Assembly: GCA_003167555.1 (NCBI GenBank)
Contig: PMSN01000023.1
Span: 186,001-250,000, forward strand
DNA: 64,000 bases
Direction of reading: 5' to 3'
Origin: Spartobacteria bacterium
Lineage (GTDB): Bacteria > Verrucomicrobiota > Verrucomicrobiia > Chthoniobacterales > UBA10450
The first letter of the stretch is position 1. Each line of letters starts with the position of its first letter. Shown here piece by piece: positions 41,512 through 56,169 of this stretch. The notes under the pieces were generated by a model, which did no database searches, was not told where the DNA came from, and was given only the letters and a program-made list of their open reading frames with translations. The translations under genes were made by a program, and so were the position numbers.

Positions 41512-43494
41512 TTACTGCAAATTGTAAGCTTCTATCAAGCCGACCCCGGCGTCGCCGGTCTTTCCAGCTATGATCGCGGTATAGTTACCGGCCGGAAGCG
41601 TGGCCAGGATGGCTGACTCCAAATCGTTCGTCGGAGGAATCGTCGTCGCTTCGATCTCCGCTTGCTGGCTGCTGCCGTCGGACCGCGTTTTCCAGTTATC
41701 GTTGTTCGCGATTGTCGCGCCATTGCCATCGTGCAGTTCGATGGTTGGATCAGCCAGAGCATTCGAAAGACCCGCCTGATTTAGCGATGGGCCAATTCCG
41801 CGCACGAGGACCTTGCCATTGGCGGTTCCGTTGCCGACGATAAGCCCTCCTATCGTTACGTTGTCCGCGGTGCCAACCAGGGCGCGGGTGCTGATGTTAC
41901 CAAGAATAGCGCCGTCGCTCGGGTTCAAGTCATAAACTTCCACCAGAGCTACTCCAGTCGAAGCGCCTTTGCCACGCACAATCGCGGTATAAGATGTGTT
42001 AGGAGCTAGCGTCGTTAGAATAACAGACTCCGCGCTGTTATGCGGTTGAAGCGAAACGGGAATATCGGCGGCGTTGGATCCTTGTTGCCAATCATCGTTC
42101 GACGCGATCAGCAAACCATTCGAGTCATGCAGTTCGAGAACCGGATCTGGCAGAAAACCGGCGACGCCGAACGCGCCCAGCGAAGGACCGAGAGCGCGGA
42201 TGGCAATTCTTTTGGAATTGGCGCCCGTGAGAATGAAGCCACCGATCAACTCGTTCGGATCGGCCGCGACGCGGCCACGCGTGGAAATATTAAGAAATTG
42301 CTGCGGGCGCGTCGCTACCTGCACCTTCACGATTTGATTAGGCCGGCTATCCTGGCCGAAGTAGGCATAACCGCGCACTGGATCAAAAGCGGCGGAGCGG
42401 AAGAACACTTCACCATAGGGAAGGTTGGCATCGGTGCTTACGTTCGGCGCCGTCGTGCCATTAGGAGGAGTAGTGCTGCTTGTCCCTCCCTGAAGCGATA
42501 GGACTCCGACTTCAGCAGGAAGATTGGGACCATTAAGGCTCAATTGATAGACGTGTCCCGGATAGCTGTTGTCGTCGGCGAAATAAACGTAGCCATTCAG
42601 TGGATCGAGCACTGAGGCCGCCAACCGGCCCTCGCCCGGTTGGAGTAACGTATTTCCGACCAAGGTTGGCGTTACGTCTCCATCCTCGAGTCTTACTTTG
42701 TAGACCTTGGCCCGGACCGTCGGGTCGCTGTCGTAGGTGCCGTAGTAGGCGTAGCCGTGCACGGTATCGATGGAACCTCCGTCAATGAACGTGCCGACCG
42801 TGTCCAGATCGACGCCGCCAATCCGCACCGGTGGATTGGAGCCGGACGTCATCTTGATTTTCACAACTCGAGAGATATTGGGCGTGGGCGTTGAATTCGG
42901 GGTGGTGACGAAATAGGCATACCCTTTCTTTGCATCCACCAGATTTCCCAGGAGGGCTTTGTCCTCTCCGGAAGGAAGTGTGACGGAACCTAGTTCAGTA
43001 AAAGTAGAGAGAGCTACTTTCACAATCTTCGCCGGCGTGCTGGTGGTAAAGACGTATAGATAATGGTTCGCTGGGTTGGCGTCGGAGTCATCGATAACAA
43101 GGCCGGAAGCGGCGCCCGAACCGAGAGTAAGTGTGCCGGCGGCGGTAACTGGAGCGGCTCCAATTCCAAGCGCGTATCGCTTGATCGAAGCTCCGGGGAA
43201 ATAAGCGTAACCGGCGGCGACGTCGATGGCGGCGCAGGCGAACTGGCCAGTGGAGAGCGGCGACCCAATCGGCACCGGCAAAGGGCCTGTGATATCAAGC
43301 TTGAAAAGGTAGTTGCCCACGAAATAGGCGTAACCATTTACGGGATCGATAACTGAGGCATACATTCCCTTGTCATCCGGATTGGAGTTGCGCGGCGTCA
43401 GAGTCGTGTGGCCGACACGCTGGGGCGCGCCGGCTTCGGCAAAGAACGTGAAGACAAAAGCGAAAGCGCTGGCGAGCAGGAATTTGAATTTCAT
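41512..43494 (-). CDS. exported beta-propeller protein with tandem C-terminal module
   Basis: 660 residues from the ATG at 43494, which has GAGG upstream and opens a signal peptide (MKFKFLLASAFAFVFTFFAEA). Residues about 25-400 contain seven or so blades marked by NGYAYFVGN, AGYAYFPGA, KGYAYFVTT, HGYAYYGTY, NGYVYFADD and RGYAYFGQD: a YVTN/NHL-like propeller. Residues about 402-660 are two copies of the 130-residue module shared with the beta-helix, esterase and pectinesterase proteins. The second copy is nearly identical over about 30 residues to one in the beta-helix protein. Likely a surface-bound binding protein. Confidence 0.87.
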   Translation of the reverse strand: MKFKFLLASAFAFVFTFFAEAGAPQRVGHTTLTPRNSNPDDKGMYASVIDPVNGYAYFVGNYLFKLDITGPLPVPIGSPLSTGQFACAAIDVAAGYAYFPGASIKRYALGIGAAPVTAAGTLTLGSGAASGLVIDDSDANPANHYLYVFTTSTPAKIVKVALSTFTELGSVTLPSGEDKALLGNLVDAKKGYAYFVTTPNSTPTPNISRVVKIKMTSGSNPPVRIGGVDLDTVGTFIDGGSIDTVHGYAYYGTYDSDPTVRAKVYKVRLEDGDVTPTLVGNTLLQPGEGRLAASVLDPLNGYVYFADDNSYPGHVYQLSLNGPNLPAEVGVLSLQGGTSSTTPPNGTTAPNVSTDANLPYGEVFFRSAAFDPVRGYAYFGQDSRPNQIVKVQVATRPQQFLNISTRGRVAADPNELIGGFILTGANSKRIAIRALGPSLGAFGVAGFLPDPVLELHDSNGLLIASNDDWQQGSNAADIPVSLQPHNSAESVILTTLAPNTSYTAIVRGKGASTGVALVEVYDLNPSDGAILGNISTRALVGTADNVTIGGLIVGNGTANGKVLVRGIGPSLNQAGLSNALADPTIELHDGNGATIANNDNWKTRSDGSSQQAEIEATTIPPTNDLESAILATLPAGNYTAIIAGKTGDAGVGLIEAYNLQ

Positions 43495-43561
43495 TCGAAC
43501 GAACCTCACGCCCAGATGCAGCAGGCCATGAGCCATCGGCTCCGTGATTCTCGCCCGGCCG

Positions 43562-48988: not shown

Positions 48989-50941
48989 TCAGCGTCCCAG
49001 ATTGTATACTTCGATAAGACCAATGCCGGTGCCGCCGCTGCGGCCGGCGAGGACTGCCGTATAGGGACCGGCCGGAAGCGACGCGACGATAGCCGATTCC
49101 CGATCGTCGGCGGGCGGAATGCCTGTCGCTTCGATTTCCGCTTGCTGCGCGTCCTTCCAGTTATCGTTAAAGGCAATCGCGACGCCATTGCCGTCGTGCA
49201 ATTCCACGGTGGGATCCGCGAGCGCTTCATCGATCCCCGCTGCCGCCAGCGATGGGCCAATGGCACGAACGATTATTCTCGAGCCCTCGCTTCCACCCGC
49301 GAGAATAAATCCCGCGATCATTACGTGATCGCCGCCAGTGATGAAACCGCGCGTGCTGATGTTGGCCAGTTGCGTGGTACTCGCGCCACTCAAATCGTAA
49401 ACTTCGACGAGCGCGACACCAGTGGTAGCGCGCCGGCCTTTGACAATGGCGGTGTAGGCGCCCGGCGAAAGCGTCGCGAGGATGGCCGCTTCGTGATCGT
49501 CGGAGGGAGGAATACCGGTGGCGATGATTTCCTCTGCCTGGGAAAATCTCCAATTGTTGTTAAGTGCAATGCGACTGCCATCCGCCGCGCGCAGATCCAG
49601 GATGGGATCCGCGAGCGCGTCAGCGATATCGGCGTTCTCCAACGACGGCCCGATGGCTCTCAGTAACACTTGCTTCGGAGCGCTGCCGGTCAGGATGAAA
49701 CCGGCGATGAGGACGTTGTCGCCGGTCTGAACTTCGAGGCGTGTCGAGATATTGAGCGCTTGAGACGGCGCGCCCGGCCCGGTCGGAAGAAGCGCAAGCT
49801 GCGCGATGGGATTCCACGGATCGCCTTGGCTCTCGTAAACGCTTCCGCTCGTCTCGGGTTGCGTGCTCGAGTCCCAAAAACTGCCGGGACCGAAGATGTG
49901 CTCGAGAGTGTAATTCCCCGCCTGCTCCTCCGTCATCGGATCTGTCCATGAGACGCGGCCATTGGGTGTGCCGTCGCCGTCACTGTCCGCAAGTGGATTG
50001 CCGTTTAGATCCGTGCTGCCAAACTCAGAGAACCGGGTGAGCGGATCGCGATTGACCGTCGGATCGACGCCGGGCATTCCGGTATCGTCCCAAGGATCCC
50101 AGCCAGCGGAAATAATGTGATGGCCCATCCTCGTGCGAATGAATGTCACGCTGGACATCGTCACCGGGTCCCACCATTCCCAGGGCCGGCCGAGAAACAC
50201 CGTGTCGGGTAGCGCCGTTGTGTGATCGTCGCCAGGTTGGCGGTCGATTCCCGGCACAAGTGCGCAATCGAGGAAAACCAATCCATTAGCCGTCGTCCGT
50301 TTCGTGTTGGCGGCCGTGATCCAGCCAAGGTCGGTGCTCTCGATCGTGCAATGGTCGAAGACGGCCGTCGCGTCGCCGAAAATAAAATCGGTGTCTCCCG
50401 TGATGAAACTATCGCGAAAGTATTGCCGCGACATTTCGTCGACCATCAAGGTGTCCTGATAACCGAGAAACCGAACGTTATCGAAAATGACGCGGTCGGC
50501 AGCCGATCGCACCGCGACCGCTGCCGTCACATTCTTGTCCGGGATGGAATTTTCAAACGTCACGTTCCGCGCCATGAACGCGGTGGCGCCATCTTGGATC
50601 TCGAGGACCTGACCCCAGGTAAACTGGTTGCCGGACCCAATCATCCGGGAGAAAACGATCGTCGTCGTGTCCGGCGAAGGACCGGTGCCGATGAAGCTGA
50701 TGTACGGCTTGTCGACCGTGACGATCTCGTGGTAAGTGCCCGGCGCGATAAAAATGTTGGCGCGGTTGAATTCACTCTGGCCGGCCACGGCATCCACGGC
50801 GGCCTGCACGGTGGGGTAGGAATTTCCGCTCGGATTGACGGAGTAATCAGTCGCGCTGGCCCTGCTGAGCGCGGCGAGCAGCGACGCCACTAAAAGTAGC
50901 GACCCTGCTCCGTCGACCTTCCTGGGGGATCGGCGACACAT
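48989..50941 (-). CDS. pectinesterase (CE8) with tandem C-terminal module
   Basis: 650 residues with a signal peptide (about 1-30). Residues about 31-330 form a right-handed beta-helix of carbohydrate esterase family 8: catalytic acid Asp163 in GYQDTL, nucleophile Asp185 in GDTDFIFGDA, and FLGRPWEWW with the Arg/Trp pair that binds galacturonate. It demethylates pectin. A short linker leads to two copies of the 130-residue module (about 405-650; ALNISTRLEVQTGDNV and LANISTRGFITGGDHV) shared with three other exported proteins here. Suggests growth on plant cell-wall pectin. No pectate lyase is in the window. Confidence 0.94.
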   Translation of the reverse strand: MCRRSPRKVDGAGSLLLVASLLAALSRASATDYSVNPSGNSYPTVQAAVDAVAGQSEFNRANIFIAPGTYHEIVTVDKPYISFIGTGPSPDTTTIVFSRMIGSGNQFTWGQVLEIQDGATAFMARNVTFENSIPDKNVTAAVAVRSAADRVIFDNVRFLGYQDTLMVDEMSRQYFRDSFITGDTDFIFGDATAVFDHCTIESTDLGWITAANTKRTTANGLVFLDCALVPGIDRQPGDDHTTALPDTVFLGRPWEWWDPVTMSSVTFIRTRMGHHIISAGWDPWDDTGMPGVDPTVNRDPLTRFSEFGSTDLNGNPLADSDGDGTPNGRVSWTDPMTEEQAGNYTLEHIFGPGSFWDSSTQPETSGSVYESQGDPWNPIAQLALLPTGPGAPSQALNISTRLEVQTGDNVLIAGFILTGSAPKQVLLRAIGPSLENADIADALADPILDLRAADGSRIALNNNWRFSQAEEIIATGIPPSDDHEAAILATLSPGAYTAIVKGRRATTGVALVEVYDLSGASTTQLANISTRGFITGGDHVMIAGFILAGGSEGSRIIVRAIGPSLAAAGIDEALADPTVELHDGNGVAIAFNDNWKDAQQAEIEATGIPPADDRESAIVASLPAGPYTAVLAGRSGGTGIGLIEVYNLGR

Positions 50942-51153
50942 CGAAGGTTCAACCCTTTCCGTGCCTGCGAGTTTCGAAATTTCTCGGCGTAAAACAAACC
51001 AAAAAATTCAACGCGAAAATTCCGCCCGTAATCATAATTCAGTCGAATTCGACGCTCACCCTCGCTGTGGGGTTCGAATCAATAGGAGAAACCTGCGCTT
51101 GTTTGATCACCAGGCGATTGATTGACTTAAGGACCTCGGAAAAATTCCGGCCC

Positions 51154-52935
51154 ATGGAACATAAAATATTTCTCGGCAAATACCGCGTCTCCCTCGACGA
51201 ACTCGAGAGTCCAACGGAGCTGCGCGATCATCCGCTTCTTCTCGAGGCGGAGGACACCGTTGCGGAGAAAAAAGTAAGTTTGAAACTGGTCCCGGCCGCG
51301 TTGCTCAAGCCGGCGGTGCTGGAACAACTCACCGCAGAAGCAGCCGCCGCGAAGAAGCTCAATCACATCAACATCCCGGCGCTGCTCGATTTCGGGATCG
51401 AGGACGACCAGCTCGTTTATGTCACGGAATACATCGACGGCACCAGCGCGGAAGAATGGGTGAACAGCCACGGCCCCATGCCGACGGGCGCGACTTTGCG
51501 TATCGGTTTACAGGTCGTGAGCGCATTGGGCGCCGCCGCGTTTCAGAAAATTTCTCATCACGCAATTAATCCCGGCAACGTCATCCTCGTCCCCGGCCAG
51601 ACGGCGGAAGGCGATTGGCCGCTGGTGAAAGTGCTGGACTTCGTCGGCGTCGCGCCCGCAGCCCTCGGCACAGACGTGGACGTGGCCGCATTCGACAGAT
51701 CGACGCATTACACGAGCCCCGAGCAATTGAAGCAAGGCACGGTCGATTTCCGGTCGGAGATTTATTCGCTCGGCTGCACGATGTGGTTTCTCCTCACGGG
51801 CGCCCCGCCTTTGATGGTGGCGAAAGGTCCGGTGGCGCTGCATCAAACGAACCTCGGTCTGGCAGTCGACAAGTTGCACGGCATGCCGAAACGCGTGCGG
51901 CGATTACTCGCGCAAATGTTGTCCGCCGATCGGGAGGCGCGGCCGCATGATCCGCTCGGATTCTACCGCCAAATTCAGGAGTGCCTCGCGCAAGTGGATC
52001 GGCGGGAGACAATGGCGCGGCGGTTCGGAACTCCGTTGCTGTCGCGCAAAGCAGCGTTCCCGAATCAGGCGCGCCGGCGAATTGGGAGGAAGACTCTCGC
52101 GCTCGCCGCAGTCCTTATCGCGCTTGGCGCCGTCGCCGCGTTGGTTTTGCCCGCATATCTTCATCACAAGCGAGTCGTCCAAGCCGAGGAACCGATCGGT
52201 GTGCCAATCGGCGTTCCGGACGCTGTCGCTTCGGCCACGCCAGGGACGGCGGCAAACGCGTCTCTGCAAATTCAAACGCAGCCGCTAGGTGGACCTGTGG
52301 ATTCGGCAAAGACTGAGACTGCGAGCAACGACTCCGCCGCGGTTGTTTCGCGAAACGAAGTTACGCCGCCAGTCCAGCCCGCGCCTGTTGCGCCAACCGA
52401 GGCCGCGACTGCTCCGCCCACCGTCGCAGCAGCGCCGCCACCTCCGTCTCCGAATGCGCCGGTTGTCGAATCAAAATCCAAGGCGCCCAAGACAACCGCT
52501 CCGACATCGCAGACTGAATCCGCTTCGGTTATTTCCAAAGCAGAAACCGAGGCGGCAACGAATGGAGACGAACCGCTCCCCGCGCGCGCCGTTGCGCCGG
52601 AGGTAAGACGCGCAGAGCCGGCGCCCCCTTCTGAGGGACCTGAAGAAGCAGTGCAATCGCCCCGCACCGAGAAACCGAAGGAAGCGGAGCCAAAGGTTGT
52701 CGCGAAAGCGCGATCGAAGAAGAGCGAGACCCCCGCGAAATCGTCGCGCAGAGCCCCAAAGGAAACGGAACCCGACGCGGCGGAGCGTGAAGCCGAATCG
52801 GACGCTCAAATGTCGCCGGTTCCGCGCGGATCGATGCGGGCGAAATTTGTCGGTGTGACCGCGGATGGTCAGTGGATGCTCATGCTGCCATCACGCAAAG
52901 TCGTCGTTGTCCCGCCGCCGCCCTCGTACCCGTAA
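51154..52935 (+). CDS. membrane-anchored protein kinase-like protein, probable pseudokinase
   Basis: 593 residues from the ATG at 51154; an upstream TTG/ATG extension lacks similarity. Residues 1-290 show a Hanks-type kinase fold: a Lys at residue 44 (SLK) in the VAIK position, YVTEYIDGTSAEEWV hinge, YTSPEQLKQGTVDFRSEIYSLGC activation end. Catalytic loop His-Arg-Asp-x-Lys-Pro-x-Asn is changed to HHAINPGN (135-142), losing the catalytic Asp and Lys, and Asp-Phe-Gly reads DFV (162-164). No glycine-rich loop is seen. A membrane helix at about 310-335 is followed by about 250 residues of Pro/Ala/Lys/Glu-rich sequence outside. Probably binds but does not phosphorylate. Confidence 0.85.
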   Translation: MEHKIFLGKYRVSLDELESPTELRDHPLLLEAEDTVAEKKVSLKLVPAALLKPAVLEQLTAEAAAAKKLNHINIPALLDFGIEDDQLVYVTEYIDGTSAEEWVNSHGPMPTGATLRIGLQVVSALGAAAFQKISHHAINPGNVILVPGQTAEGDWPLVKVLDFVGVAPAALGTDVDVAAFDRSTHYTSPEQLKQGTVDFRSEIYSLGCTMWFLLTGAPPLMVAKGPVALHQTNLGLAVDKLHGMPKRVRRLLAQMLSADREARPHDPLGFYRQIQECLAQVDRRETMARRFGTPLLSRKAAFPNQARRRIGRKTLALAAVLIALGAVAALVLPAYLHHKRVVQAEEPIGVPIGVPDAVASATPGTAANASLQIQTQPLGGPVDSAKTETASNDSAAVVSRNEVTPPVQPAPVAPTEAATAPPTVAAAPPPPSPNAPVVESKSKAPKTTAPTSQTESASVISKAETEAATNGDEPLPARAVAPEVRRAEPAPPSEGPEEAVQSPRTEKPKEAEPKVVAKARSKKSETPAKSSRRAPKETEPDAAEREAESDAQMSPVPRGSMRAKFVGVTADGQWMLMLPSRKVVVVPPPPSYP

Positions 52936-52983: not shown

Positions 52984-55900
52984 TTACCGAACGAGATGGA
53001 AGTTGGCGGGAATTTCTCCGCCGCCAGAACCGGATCGCGCATCGTTAATTGCCACCTTCGCAGGTGGCGCTTCAATCGCCGGCTGGCCTTTCGTTTTGAG
53101 CGCATCGTTCAGCGCCGGCAGATCCTTGGCGAGCAGTTGCTCGAATTCTTTCGTGATGTCCTCCAACTCGCGCCGCAGCGCGTCGATGTTCGCGATCTGG
53201 TAGTCGCCCGGCTTGCCTTCATAGCTCAGGATCGCGCCATAAAGCTGATCGGTGTGCTCGCGCAAACGCTCCTCACCCGTGATCGCGCCGCCCTCGGTCG
53301 TCGCGACGATTTCTTTGCGGACCGCGTCCACCTTCCCGTCAAAGTCCGCGACGGTTTTGCGGAGCGGATCGCCTTCCGGAAATCCCGCGCCAGTCTTCTG
53401 CAAACTTCCGCGCAACGAAATGATGCGATCCATGAGCGCGCTTTCGTCGCCGAAGAGCGCATGCACTTTCATCGCCGCGTCGAACTGCGCTTTGCGATCG
53501 GCCTCGGAAAACTTTACTCGCCGATCGAGGCCGACCGTCAGCTTCGTCTCGGAAACTTTGCCAGCCTTCGTCATGCGGACGGTGTAAGTGCCGGGTAAGA
53601 GACGGGGGCCACGCGTGCCCGCGAATGCGAGTTGCGCCGCGGGCGGAACGCGCGGCGGTTTTTCGTGCATACTCCAGATCACGCGATTCAATCCGGGCCG
53701 TTTGCTCGCGGGCAATTCATCCACCACGCGCCCTGATGCATCCAGCACTTCGATTTTCAATTTCCCGAAGAGATGACGCGTGCGCTGGTAATACGTAATG
53801 ACGGCGGCATCCGGCGGATTGTCGCCGGTAAAGGTCGCGGCGCCACCCGGCCAGCCGCCATTCGCTTCGATCCGTTGTTGCACGGGCCGCGCGGAAACGA
53901 AACTCGCTTCCTGCGTGAGCAGATCGGTGCTGAGAGCGCGCAGCGGCGTGATGTCGTCGACAATCCAGATGCCGCGGCCATGCGTCGCGAGGACGAGATC
54001 GTTTTCACGCCCATGAATGGCGAGATCGCGCACCGCGACCGCCGGAAAGTGCGAGCCTTTGAACTGCGCCCACGCTTTTCCGCCGTCAATGGAAACAAAC
54101 AAACCGAACTCCGTGCCGAGAAAGAGAAGATTCGGCTGCACGAGATCTTCCTTGATGACGTGAGCGTATCCGCGCACGCCTTTCACATCCTGGGCGTTCA
54201 CCAACGGCGTCCAGGTTTTGCCGAAATCCGCCGTGCGAAAAACATACGGCGCCATGTCGCCGAACGCGTGGCGATCGAACGCAGCGTAGGCGGTGCCCGC
54301 ATCGAAGTTGCCCGCCTGCACCCAGCTCACCCAGGAATTCTTCGGCAGGTTCGGCACGCTGCCGACCACGTTGCTCCAGGTCTTCCCGCCATCGCGCGTG
54401 AGCTGGACGTTGCCGTCGTCGGTGCCCACCCAGATGATCTGCTTATCTTTCGGCGATTCGCTGATCGAATAAATCGTCGTGTGCATTTCCGCCGAGGAAT
54501 TATCCACCGTCACGCCGCCCGATTTTTCCTGCTTCTGTTTCTCGGGATCGTTCGTGCTCAAGTCCGGCGAGATGCGGTCCCAGGTCTGACCGTGATCGCG
54601 CGAGCGGAAAAGAAATTGCGCGCCGATGTAGATCGTTCCTTTTTCGGTGGGCGAGAGCGCGATCGGCGTGTTCCAATTCCAGCGCAGCTTCTCCTTGTAG
54701 TTCGGCTTCGGTTGAATGTCGCGCGCTTCGTGAGTGAGGCGATTCACTCGCCCGATGAAACCGCCCTGCGCCTCGGCGTAGAGATAATCGGGGTCGGCCG
54801 GATCGGAGAACATCCAGAAGCCGTCGCCGCCGTACATGTTTTCCCACTGGGCGTTACTGATGCCGCCGGGATATTGCGACTGGCCCACCCACGAGCTGTT
54901 GTCCTGCAACCCGCCATAAACCTGGAACGGATCTTTGTCGTCCAGGCTGACGTGATAGAACTGCGAGACGGGCAGGTTCTCGCCCTTCCACCATTTGCTG
55001 CCGCTGTTGTAGGAATACCAAATGCCGCCGTCGTCTCCGGCCACGACCGTCTGCGTGTTAGTCGAATCGATCCAGACATCGTGCATGTCGCCGTGGCCGC
55101 CTTGGAAACCGCCGACAACGGAAAAGCTTTTGCCCGCGTCTTCGCTCAAGATCAGCGGACCATCGGTCTTGAAGACGCGATCTGGATTTTTCGGATCCAC
55201 AATCAGGTTCGCGAAATAGAACGGACGCCAGACCATCCAATTGCTCTTGTCGCGTTTGTCCCAGGTCGCGCCGCCGTCATCGGAAACAAAGAGCGCGCTG
55301 TCGGTGGATTCGACGAAACAATAAACGCGCTTCGCATTCGACGGTGCAATCGCGATCGCGAGGCGGCCGTACGGTTTCTTCGGAAAACCCTTGCTGTTCT
55401 CCGGCGTAATTTCTTTCCACGTCGCGCCGCCATCTTCGGTGCGGAACAAGCCGCTGCCGGAAGGTTGCTCGGGACCGTCGCCGCCGGAGCGGAACGTCCA
55501 ACCTTTGCGGCGGAAATCCCACATCGCCGCGAACATCTTGTTCGGATCCGTGGGATCGGGCGCGATGGCCGAACAACCGGTCGACGCGTTGGCGCCTTTC
55601 AAAATGAGGTTCCAGTTCTTGCCGCCATCGGTCGTCTTATAAAGCCCGCGATCCGGTGAATCGCTCCAGAGCGCGCCGGGCACCGCGGCGAAAACCGTGT
55701 CGCTGCTCGTCGGGCTCACCACCATCTTCGAGACGCGCTCCGAGTTTGGCAGGCCCGCGTAGTTCCAGGTCTCACCGCTATCGGTCGATTTGTAAATTCC
55801 GTTGCCGATCGAGACGCTGTTGCGCGTCCACGATTCACCGGAGCCGACCCAAACGTTCTTCGAGTTCTTCGGATCGAGCGCGATGGCGCCAATCGATTGG

Positions 55901-56169
55901 ACCGGTTGCTCGTCGAAAACAGGTTTGTAACGCGTGCCGCCGTCCTCCGATTTCCAGACGCCGCCGCTGGCCGCGCCTACGAAGAGCGTCAGTTTCCCGG
56001 ACGGTTCGCGCGTCGCGGCGACGGCGGAGATGCGGCCGCTCATCGTGGCGGAACCGATGTTGCGCGCGCCAAGGCCGGAAATGGTGGAGGAATTAAACGG
56101 CGCCTGGTCCGCGCCGAGCGCGATGCCGGCGAGACAAGCTGTGAGAAGAAAAAATTTCAGGAAGCGCAT
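52984..56169 (-). CDS. exported BNR/Asp-box repeat protein (VPS10/sortilin-like propeller)
   Basis: 1061 residues with a signal peptide (MRFLKFFLLTACLAGIALGA). Many Asp-box motifs (SxDxGxTW): KSEDGGTRYKP, KSTDSGETWNY, KTTDGGKNWNL, RTEDGGATWKE and LTRDGGKTWSN, forming two linked seven- to ten-bladed propellers over about residues 30-750. A beta-sandwich (VEVLDASGRVVDELPA-like) and a helical C-terminal domain follow (about 880-1061). Usually annotated as glycosyl hydrolase or sialidase-like, but no sialidase active-site Arg triad was recognised. It starts 6 bp after the LolA-like gene. Confidence 0.9.
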   Translation of the reverse strand: MRFLKFFLLTACLAGIALGADQAPFNSSTISGLGARNIGSATMSGRISAVAATREPSGKLTLFVGAASGGVWKSEDGGTRYKPVFDEQPVQSIGAIALDPKNSKNVWVGSGESWTRNSVSIGNGIYKSTDSGETWNYAGLPNSERVSKMVVSPTSSDTVFAAVPGALWSDSPDRGLYKTTDGGKNWNLILKGANASTGCSAIAPDPTDPNKMFAAMWDFRRKGWTFRSGGDGPEQPSGSGLFRTEDGGATWKEITPENSKGFPKKPYGRLAIAIAPSNAKRVYCFVESTDSALFVSDDGGATWDKRDKSNWMVWRPFYFANLIVDPKNPDRVFKTDGPLILSEDAGKSFSVVGGFQGGHGDMHDVWIDSTNTQTVVAGDDGGIWYSYNSGSKWWKGENLPVSQFYHVSLDDKDPFQVYGGLQDNSSWVGQSQYPGGISNAQWENMYGGDGFWMFSDPADPDYLYAEAQGGFIGRVNRLTHEARDIQPKPNYKEKLRWNWNTPIALSPTEKGTIYIGAQFLFRSRDHGQTWDRISPDLSTNDPEKQKQEKSGGVTVDNSSAEMHTTIYSISESPKDKQIIWVGTDDGNVQLTRDGGKTWSNVVGSVPNLPKNSWVSWVQAGNFDAGTAYAAFDRHAFGDMAPYVFRTADFGKTWTPLVNAQDVKGVRGYAHVIKEDLVQPNLLFLGTEFGLFVSIDGGKAWAQFKGSHFPAVAVRDLAIHGRENDLVLATHGRGIWIVDDITPLRALSTDLLTQEASFVSARPVQQRIEANGGWPGGAATFTGDNPPDAAVITYYQRTRHLFGKLKIEVLDASGRVVDELPASKRPGLNRVIWSMHEKPPRVPPAAQLAFAGTRGPRLLPGTYTVRMTKAGKVSETKLTVGLDRRVKFSEADRKAQFDAAMKVHALFGDESALMDRIISLRGSLQKTGAGFPEGDPLRKTVADFDGKVDAVRKEIVATTEGGAITGEERLREHTDQLYGAILSYEGKPGDYQIANIDALRRELEDITKEFEQLLAKDLPALNDALKTKGQPAIEAPPAKVAINDARSGSGGGEIPANFHLVR

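Follow-up and report, generated by a model that had tools for sequence, protein, structure and literature searches.

The mycobacterial multi-pass membrane protein MviN has a fused pseudokinase domain (ActPs3), which has lost kinase motifs and apparently acts as a scaffold. According to a 2025 review (PMC12599244), this domain carries an activation-loop deletion, and bacterial pseudokinases, which include the families ActPs1-3, GLW, CP1, DYD, and DLHK, are largely unexplored by experiment. The same review describes EssB/YukC of the Firmicutes type VII secretion system as a single-pass, non-catalytic scaffold in which all three motifs are degraded. No mention of Verrucomicrobiota was found in the accessible text of this review, and literature searches returned no paper describing the pseudokinase family reported here.

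The gene under study is located in a 64,000-nucleotide stretch of DNA from a Spartobacteria bacterium of the Chthoniobacterales (the window; all plain coordinates refer to it). It extends on the + strand from an ATG at 51154 to a TAA at 52933-52935, and its open reading frame, start, and motifs were as first described in the initial annotation. An in-frame GTG upstream at 51067 is a possible alternative start and would add 29 residues; 46 of the 50 orthologues have a Met aligned with the ATG. The encoded protein consists of a kinase-like domain, a basic stretch, a hydrophobic segment, the motif IGVPIGVP, a low-complexity linker of ~200 residues, and a conserved tip, in this order. The individual features are as follows.

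51154..52935, + strand: pseudokinase gene, 593 aa, TAA stop; start Met aligned in 46/50 orthologues
51154..52041, + strand: residues 1-296, comprising a short N-terminal segment and the kinase-like domain; PF00069 and profile comparison with PDB kinases
51217..51243, + strand: degenerate Gly-rich loop region ELRDHPLLL; ELGRGAMGxTY in active relatives
51283..51285, + strand: Lys44 at the VAIK position (VSLK); kept in only 16/55 rows
51457..51459, + strand: Trp102; 55/55 pseudokinases, in active relatives Arg 7, Phe 6, and Leu 4 of 20
51556..51579, + strand: catalytic loop HHAINPGN, residues 135-142; Asp replaced by Ala, Lys by Asn
51616..51630, + strand: WPLVK, WP-x-x-K hairpin; Trp155 54/55, Pro156 55/55, Lys159 common to active relatives
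51637..51645, + strand: DFV at the DFG position, residues 162-164; Asp in 6/55 rows
52042..52092, + strand: basic juxtamembrane stretch, residues 297-313; 7 K/R in 17 residues
52093..52149, + strand: residues 314-332, predicted to span the membrane; mean hydropathy 2.71
52195..52218, + strand: IGVPIGVP motif just outside the membrane (predicted), residues 348-355; Gly349 41/50, Gly353 45/50, Val354 43/50
52219..52821, + strand: low-complexity Pro/Ala/Glu/Lys linker; sequence poorly conserved
52822..52932, + strand: conserved C-terminal tip PRGSMRAKFVGVTADGQWMLMLPSRKVVVVPPPPSYP, residues 557-593; tip alignment and profile search

In this layout EssB/YukC is the nearest described protein, though unmatched in sequence: no YukC match was obtained with Pfam, and a scan at an E value of 0.1 listed only kinase families. 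The two proteins also differ in phylum and in the tail, which in the window protein is made up of low-complexity sequence and the tip, and no secretion locus or secretion gene was recognized among those neighbors that are annotated, which are only a part of the total. The window protein differs from MviN in having a single membrane segment, and Pfam gave no match to MviN; its family was matched only in one bacterial family of the Verrucomicrobiota, the searched genomes being ones that held no actinobacteria.

Judged by homology, the kinase fold is secure, as the initial annotation had held. Pfam family PF00069 matches residues 37-265 with 80.4 bits (cut-off, 31.7 bits; E value, 1.9e-22). A phmmer search of the PDB returned the Ser/Thr kinase 4eqm (2.8e-20) and PknB (~2e-18), with StkP/PknB-type kinases among the best matches, and a profile made from 50 orthologues reached an E value of 6e-34 against PDB kinases. 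An AlphaFold2 prediction based on the domain of the window protein together with three relatives had a mean pLDDT of only 41, and neither the pocket nor the fold of the tip was visible in it. Matches to PASTA-kinase and other NCBIfam models were far below cut-off, and the PADLOC matches (PD-T4-6, mad6, and others) are generic kinase-domain matches, which do not constitute evidence for a role in defense.

The substitutions noted initially, i.e., HHAINPGN in place of the HRD-x-K loop, DFV in place of DFG, and the absence of GxGxxG, were all confirmed, and the altered loop proved to be a property of all 55 family members examined rather than of one deviant among intact orthologues. The counts refer to 55 rows read from 65 profile-matched places; the ten unaligned places are in G015, G049, G051, G056, G060, G065, G069, G070, G074, and G082, and a truncated extra match (L132), likewise without the catalytic Asp, was excluded. 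The HRD Asp is present in none of the 55 rows (Ala in 32, Ser in 11, Pro in 10, Glu and Thr in 1 each), and the catalytic Lys, mostly replaced by Gln or Asn, is present in a single one. The DFG Asp is retained in 6 rows, with Asn in 38 and His in 10, while the β3 Lys is found in 16, the loop Asn in 39, and the helix-C Glu in 9. None of Lys44, catalytic Asp, catalytic Lys, and DFG Asp is kept in 37/55 rows. The active sister clade in Verrucomicrobiota (for example, L010 and L112-L128), which according to the tree described below belongs to the same kinase subfamily, has all six catalytic residues in 20/20 members, whereas the pseudokinase family does not. The window protein is a pseudokinase by descent.

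With regard to the described families, motif loss fits ActPs1, in which all three residues are substituted and the G-helix is often missing, but this group is actinobacterial. GLW pseudokinases have GLW in place of HRD, whereas the window protein has HHA and most rows show His or Tyr, a variable residue, and then Ala, Ser, or Pro. An Arg in place of the β3 Lys, as in ActPs2 and DYD, occurs in 1/55 rows. CP1 and DLHK have no transmembrane region, and DLHK keeps the HRD Asp, which sets both apart from the present family.

It had been suggested that nucleotide binding may persist, and the window protein does keep Lys44, Glu62, Asn142, and Asp162. A scaffold switched by nucleotide binding without phosphotransfer would be compatible with these residues and with the presence of the Lys-Asn-DFG-Asp trio in 5/55 rows. 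The trio is lost, however, in the other 50 rows, including all seven relatives from the window's own genus, whose DFG Asp is replaced by His and whose Lys by Glu or Asn, so that the window protein alone has the trio in this genus. The Gly-rich loop is gone as well, and the 37 rows without any of the four residues named above point in the same direction. Persistence of nucleotide binding is thus unsupported by the alignment, in which the Lys and the DFG Asp of the window protein are not conserved; for this reason nucleotide sensing was set aside, and we regard it as improbable. As far as the alignment can tell, ATP binding by the window protein, if it occurs, is not what selection has preserved across the family.

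To place the family, 89 kinase domains were compared in a maximum-likelihood tree, namely, the 55 pseudokinases and 34 active kinases (12 from the window's own genome, 14 from genomes of its bacterial family, and 8 from elsewhere in the order). All 55 pseudokinases lie on one side of a branch with a support of 100/100, recovered in 100% of 200 bootstrap trees; a long-branch warning applied to a few rows, among them L068 and L071. The nearest active kinases feature ELGRGAMG, VALK, HRDxKPxN, and KVIDFG, and two of them examined over their full length (L010 and L121) consist of a kinase domain, a hydrophobic segment, and then TPR or Sel1-like repeats; the TPR were assigned by Pfam, whereas the hydrophobic segment and the repeats resembling Sel1 were identified by visual inspection. 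Because the pseudokinases form one clade and because of the motifs and layouts of these active relatives, the family appears to have a single origin in an active kinase, with catalysis lost and a tail in place of the repeats.

The kinase-like domain is under purifying selection and not in decay: its dN/dS ratio (Nei-Gojobori) was 0.05-0.40 in 13/13 close pairs. For the part comprising membrane segment and tail, the ratio was 0.12-0.61 in 11 pairs and higher in two, namely, 0.81 in a pair with a frameshifted member and 3.06 in a pair with a dS of only 0.007. A decaying kinase pseudogene could account for the variation at all catalysis-defining positions and for the frameshifts or stops in the second copy of G023, in G044, and in G075, but it is already contradicted by the dN/dS values of the kinase domain, by open frames in nearly all genomes, by newly invariant residues, and by the occurrence of the gene in 63/83 genomes, and we consider it hardly tenable.

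Trp102, Arg116, Trp155, Pro156, Phe212, and Glu282-Arg284 are among 24 positions flagged as at least 85% conserved in the pseudokinases and less conserved or occupied by another residue in the active kinases; some of the 24 share the commonest residue of the active clade. Positions that are fixed or nearly fixed only in pseudokinases include Phe6, Pro47, Trp102 (55/55), Arg116, Gly148, Gly153, Trp155 (54/55), Pro156 (55/55), and Phe212 (55/55), and the same holds for Glu/Asp282-Arg283-Arg284 immediately after the domain. Residues that hold the fold together are retained, i.e., the Glu190 of SPE in 50/55 rows and Gly207 and Arg263 (of Arg263-Pro264) in 55/55 rows each. Freely varying catalytic positions together with a newly fixed set form the pattern expected of a binding platform, which may be the role of the domain. 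The gain of another ATP-dependent chemistry has precedents among bacterial pseudokinases in SelO (AMPylation) and SidJ (glutamylation), according to the review (PMC12599244). SidJ, however, is described there as reusing ATP- and metal-binding residues, and the corresponding positions vary freely here, which makes such a conversion very improbable.

The hydrophobic segment was seen in 49/50 rows, the remaining row being cut before it. Since a basic stretch precedes this single segment, the kinase-like domain is predicted to be inside and the tail outside, a topology derived from hydropathy and charge only. The tail comprises the 261 residues after the membrane segment and is rich in Pro, Ala, Val, Glu, and Ser. 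The initial annotation had described it as an external, disordered Pro/Ala/Lys/Glu repeat; membrane anchoring and the predicted external location stand, but Tandem Repeats Finder detected no tandem repeats in the tail, and it ends in a conserved tip of ~37 residues that had been overlooked. The length of the tail differs among orthologues, while its two ends, IGVPIGVP and the tip, stay conserved. The tip (~36-37 aa) has the consensus RxGSxRARxVGxTxDGRxILRLPSGRxxxVxP, based on 33 rows chosen out of 43 found, and probably folds into a small three-stranded β-meander, as suggested by the alternation of its hydrophobic residues and by turns at DG and SG.

A profile of the tip matched 69 places in 65/83 genomes of the bacterial family, 66 of them strongly (E ≤ 3e-8) and 3 weakly (7.6e-4 to 9e-3). 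Of the strong matches, 61 share a contig with a pseudokinase match. The other five (G002, G010, G032, G035, and G043) are in frames of 80-358 codons located on another contig or in a genome that lacks a kinase match; contig ends falling within the gene would produce this picture. In the genomes searched, there was no strong match outside the pseudokinase protein, and the tip is thus essentially exclusive to this protein as far as the search extended.

The distribution of the family was determined with a profile of the kinase-like domain, which was made from an alignment of 50 of the same sequences, so that the search is partly circular. It matched 65 places in 63/83 genomes of the window's bacterial family (E < 1e-85). 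When 213 genomes of the order were searched at 1e-80, the same 63 matched and 0/130 genomes outside the bacterial family did; among 288 genomes across the phylum, the 2 that matched both belong to this same family. Among the genomes searched, the pseudokinase is therefore confined to one family of the Chthoniobacterales. If kinase and tip matches are combined, 67/83 genomes of this family contain at least part of the gene. Thirty family genomes reach a completeness of at least 90% with a contamination of at most 5%, and 22 of these match the kinase profile. The remaining 8 do not, and G032 among them has a tip match; the gene therefore seems to be dispensable.

The pseudokinase gene is probably transcribed alone, because the pectinesterase-like gene upstream (48989-50941, - strand) is divergent and the gene downstream (52984-56169, - strand; 1061 aa, Sortilin/VPS10-BNR repeats, PF15902) is convergent; a scan for promoters and terminators gave nothing above chance. 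Clustering of the neighbors at 21 loci, i.e., the window and 20 related ones, revealed no constant partner, and the neighbors differ between genera. In the window's genus, the VPS10/BNR gene and the next gene adjoin in 7/7 loci and a third gene in 6, whereas in other genera the gene is near putative SufC/SufB-type genes, named from their sequences, in 7/14 loci. Both kinds of neighbor look like genomic context rather than parts of a system. In G023, the pseudokinase gene is tandemly duplicated (L070 and L081), and the match of the second copy has one in-frame TGA. A secreted-looking protein of ~271 aa (L082:10345-11157, + strand) without a Pfam match has homologues in 5 loci; in another genus, several genomes have its gene directly next to that of the pseudokinase. 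A GH75 chitosanase-like gene (L075:6482-7816, + strand; PF07335) is near the pseudokinase in 3 loci.

A co-encoded active kinase, for which the initial annotation had recommended a check, was found near the gene neither in the window nor at the 20 related loci, and the only other kinase-like reading frame at these loci is the tandem self-copy in G023. This bears on the main rival to the adaptor role favored below, i.e., regulation of an active Ser/Thr kinase by heterodimerization, with the pseudokinase as an inhibitory or allosteric partner (for example, of the TPR kinase G000:C6:199548-200321). The sister group of the pseudokinases consists of active kinases from these bacteria, the window's own genome encodes 12 further kinases with intact HRDxKxxN, and back-to-back dimers are reported for the MviN pseudokinase domain in the review (PMC12599244). 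The lack of a kinase beside the gene argues against such a partnership, as does the conserved tip, which it leaves unexplained. Moreover, the sister type with Sel1 repeats is present in only 7/83 family genomes and absent from that of the window, and it was rejected as a fixed partner on account of this scarcity. Overall, we regard regulation of an active kinase as rather unlikely. The window's genome also has a thirteenth, partial kinase match (L013) with HLDLKPEN. The kinase gene at G000:C18:65997-66754 (L015-L017) is broken into three frame pieces, one of which has an in-frame TGA.

On balance, and with moderate confidence, we favor a lineage-specific, non-catalytic pseudokinase working as a membrane-spanning adaptor. 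The scaffold or receptor proposed initially remains a possible role in view of the pseudokinase nature, the membrane anchor, and the external tail; its ATP-sensing component is unsupported. Specifically, the cytoplasmic kinase fold would be retained as a protein-binding platform involving Trp102, the WP hairpin, and the E-R-R stretch after the kinase domain, and the single membrane helix would lead into a flexible Pro-rich linker crossing part of the periplasm. This linker would hold out the conserved tip, which might dock on an envelope partner in the periplasm or the outer envelope, and occupancy of the tip may be relayed to, or localize, a partner in the cytoplasm to which the pseudokinase domain binds. 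Against an adaptor speaks the fact that the gene stands alone and that its neighbors change between genera, with no tie to one envelope machine, as does its apparent dispensability.

TonB and FtsN have one membrane helix, a long periplasmic linker, and a small C-terminal docking unit. By analogy, the protein could possibly represent a new family of trans-envelope pseudokinase adaptors, in which a dead kinase, a Pro-rich tether, and a β-structured tip on the outer membrane or peptidoglycan form a TonB- or FtsN-like linkage, a proposal that we make tentatively. The likeness is one of layout only; homology was not found, and the tip is unlinked to TonB or SPOR domains. A conserved family of single origin with a close active sister clade offers a natural experiment on a kinase becoming a scaffold, and the tip provides a direct handle for fishing out the partner.

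Elsewhere in the window, the secreted-looking proteins encoded at 41512-43536 (- strand) and 48989-50941 (- strand) share C-terminal modules of ~120 aa with the pattern NISTR...GFILTG...RAIGPSL. Neither module had a Pfam match above cut-off; that of 41512-43536 matches the NCBIfam model NF038127 ('DVUA0089 family') with 31.5 bits (cut-off, 29). The module of 48989-50941 is present in at least 150 copies in the 4.2-Mb genome, often as tandem pairs. Of 59 genomes from across the phylum, 4 have it, namely, the window's own and three others, the latter with 34-56 copies. This expansion is striking, and the module perhaps has a role in surface sorting or anchoring.
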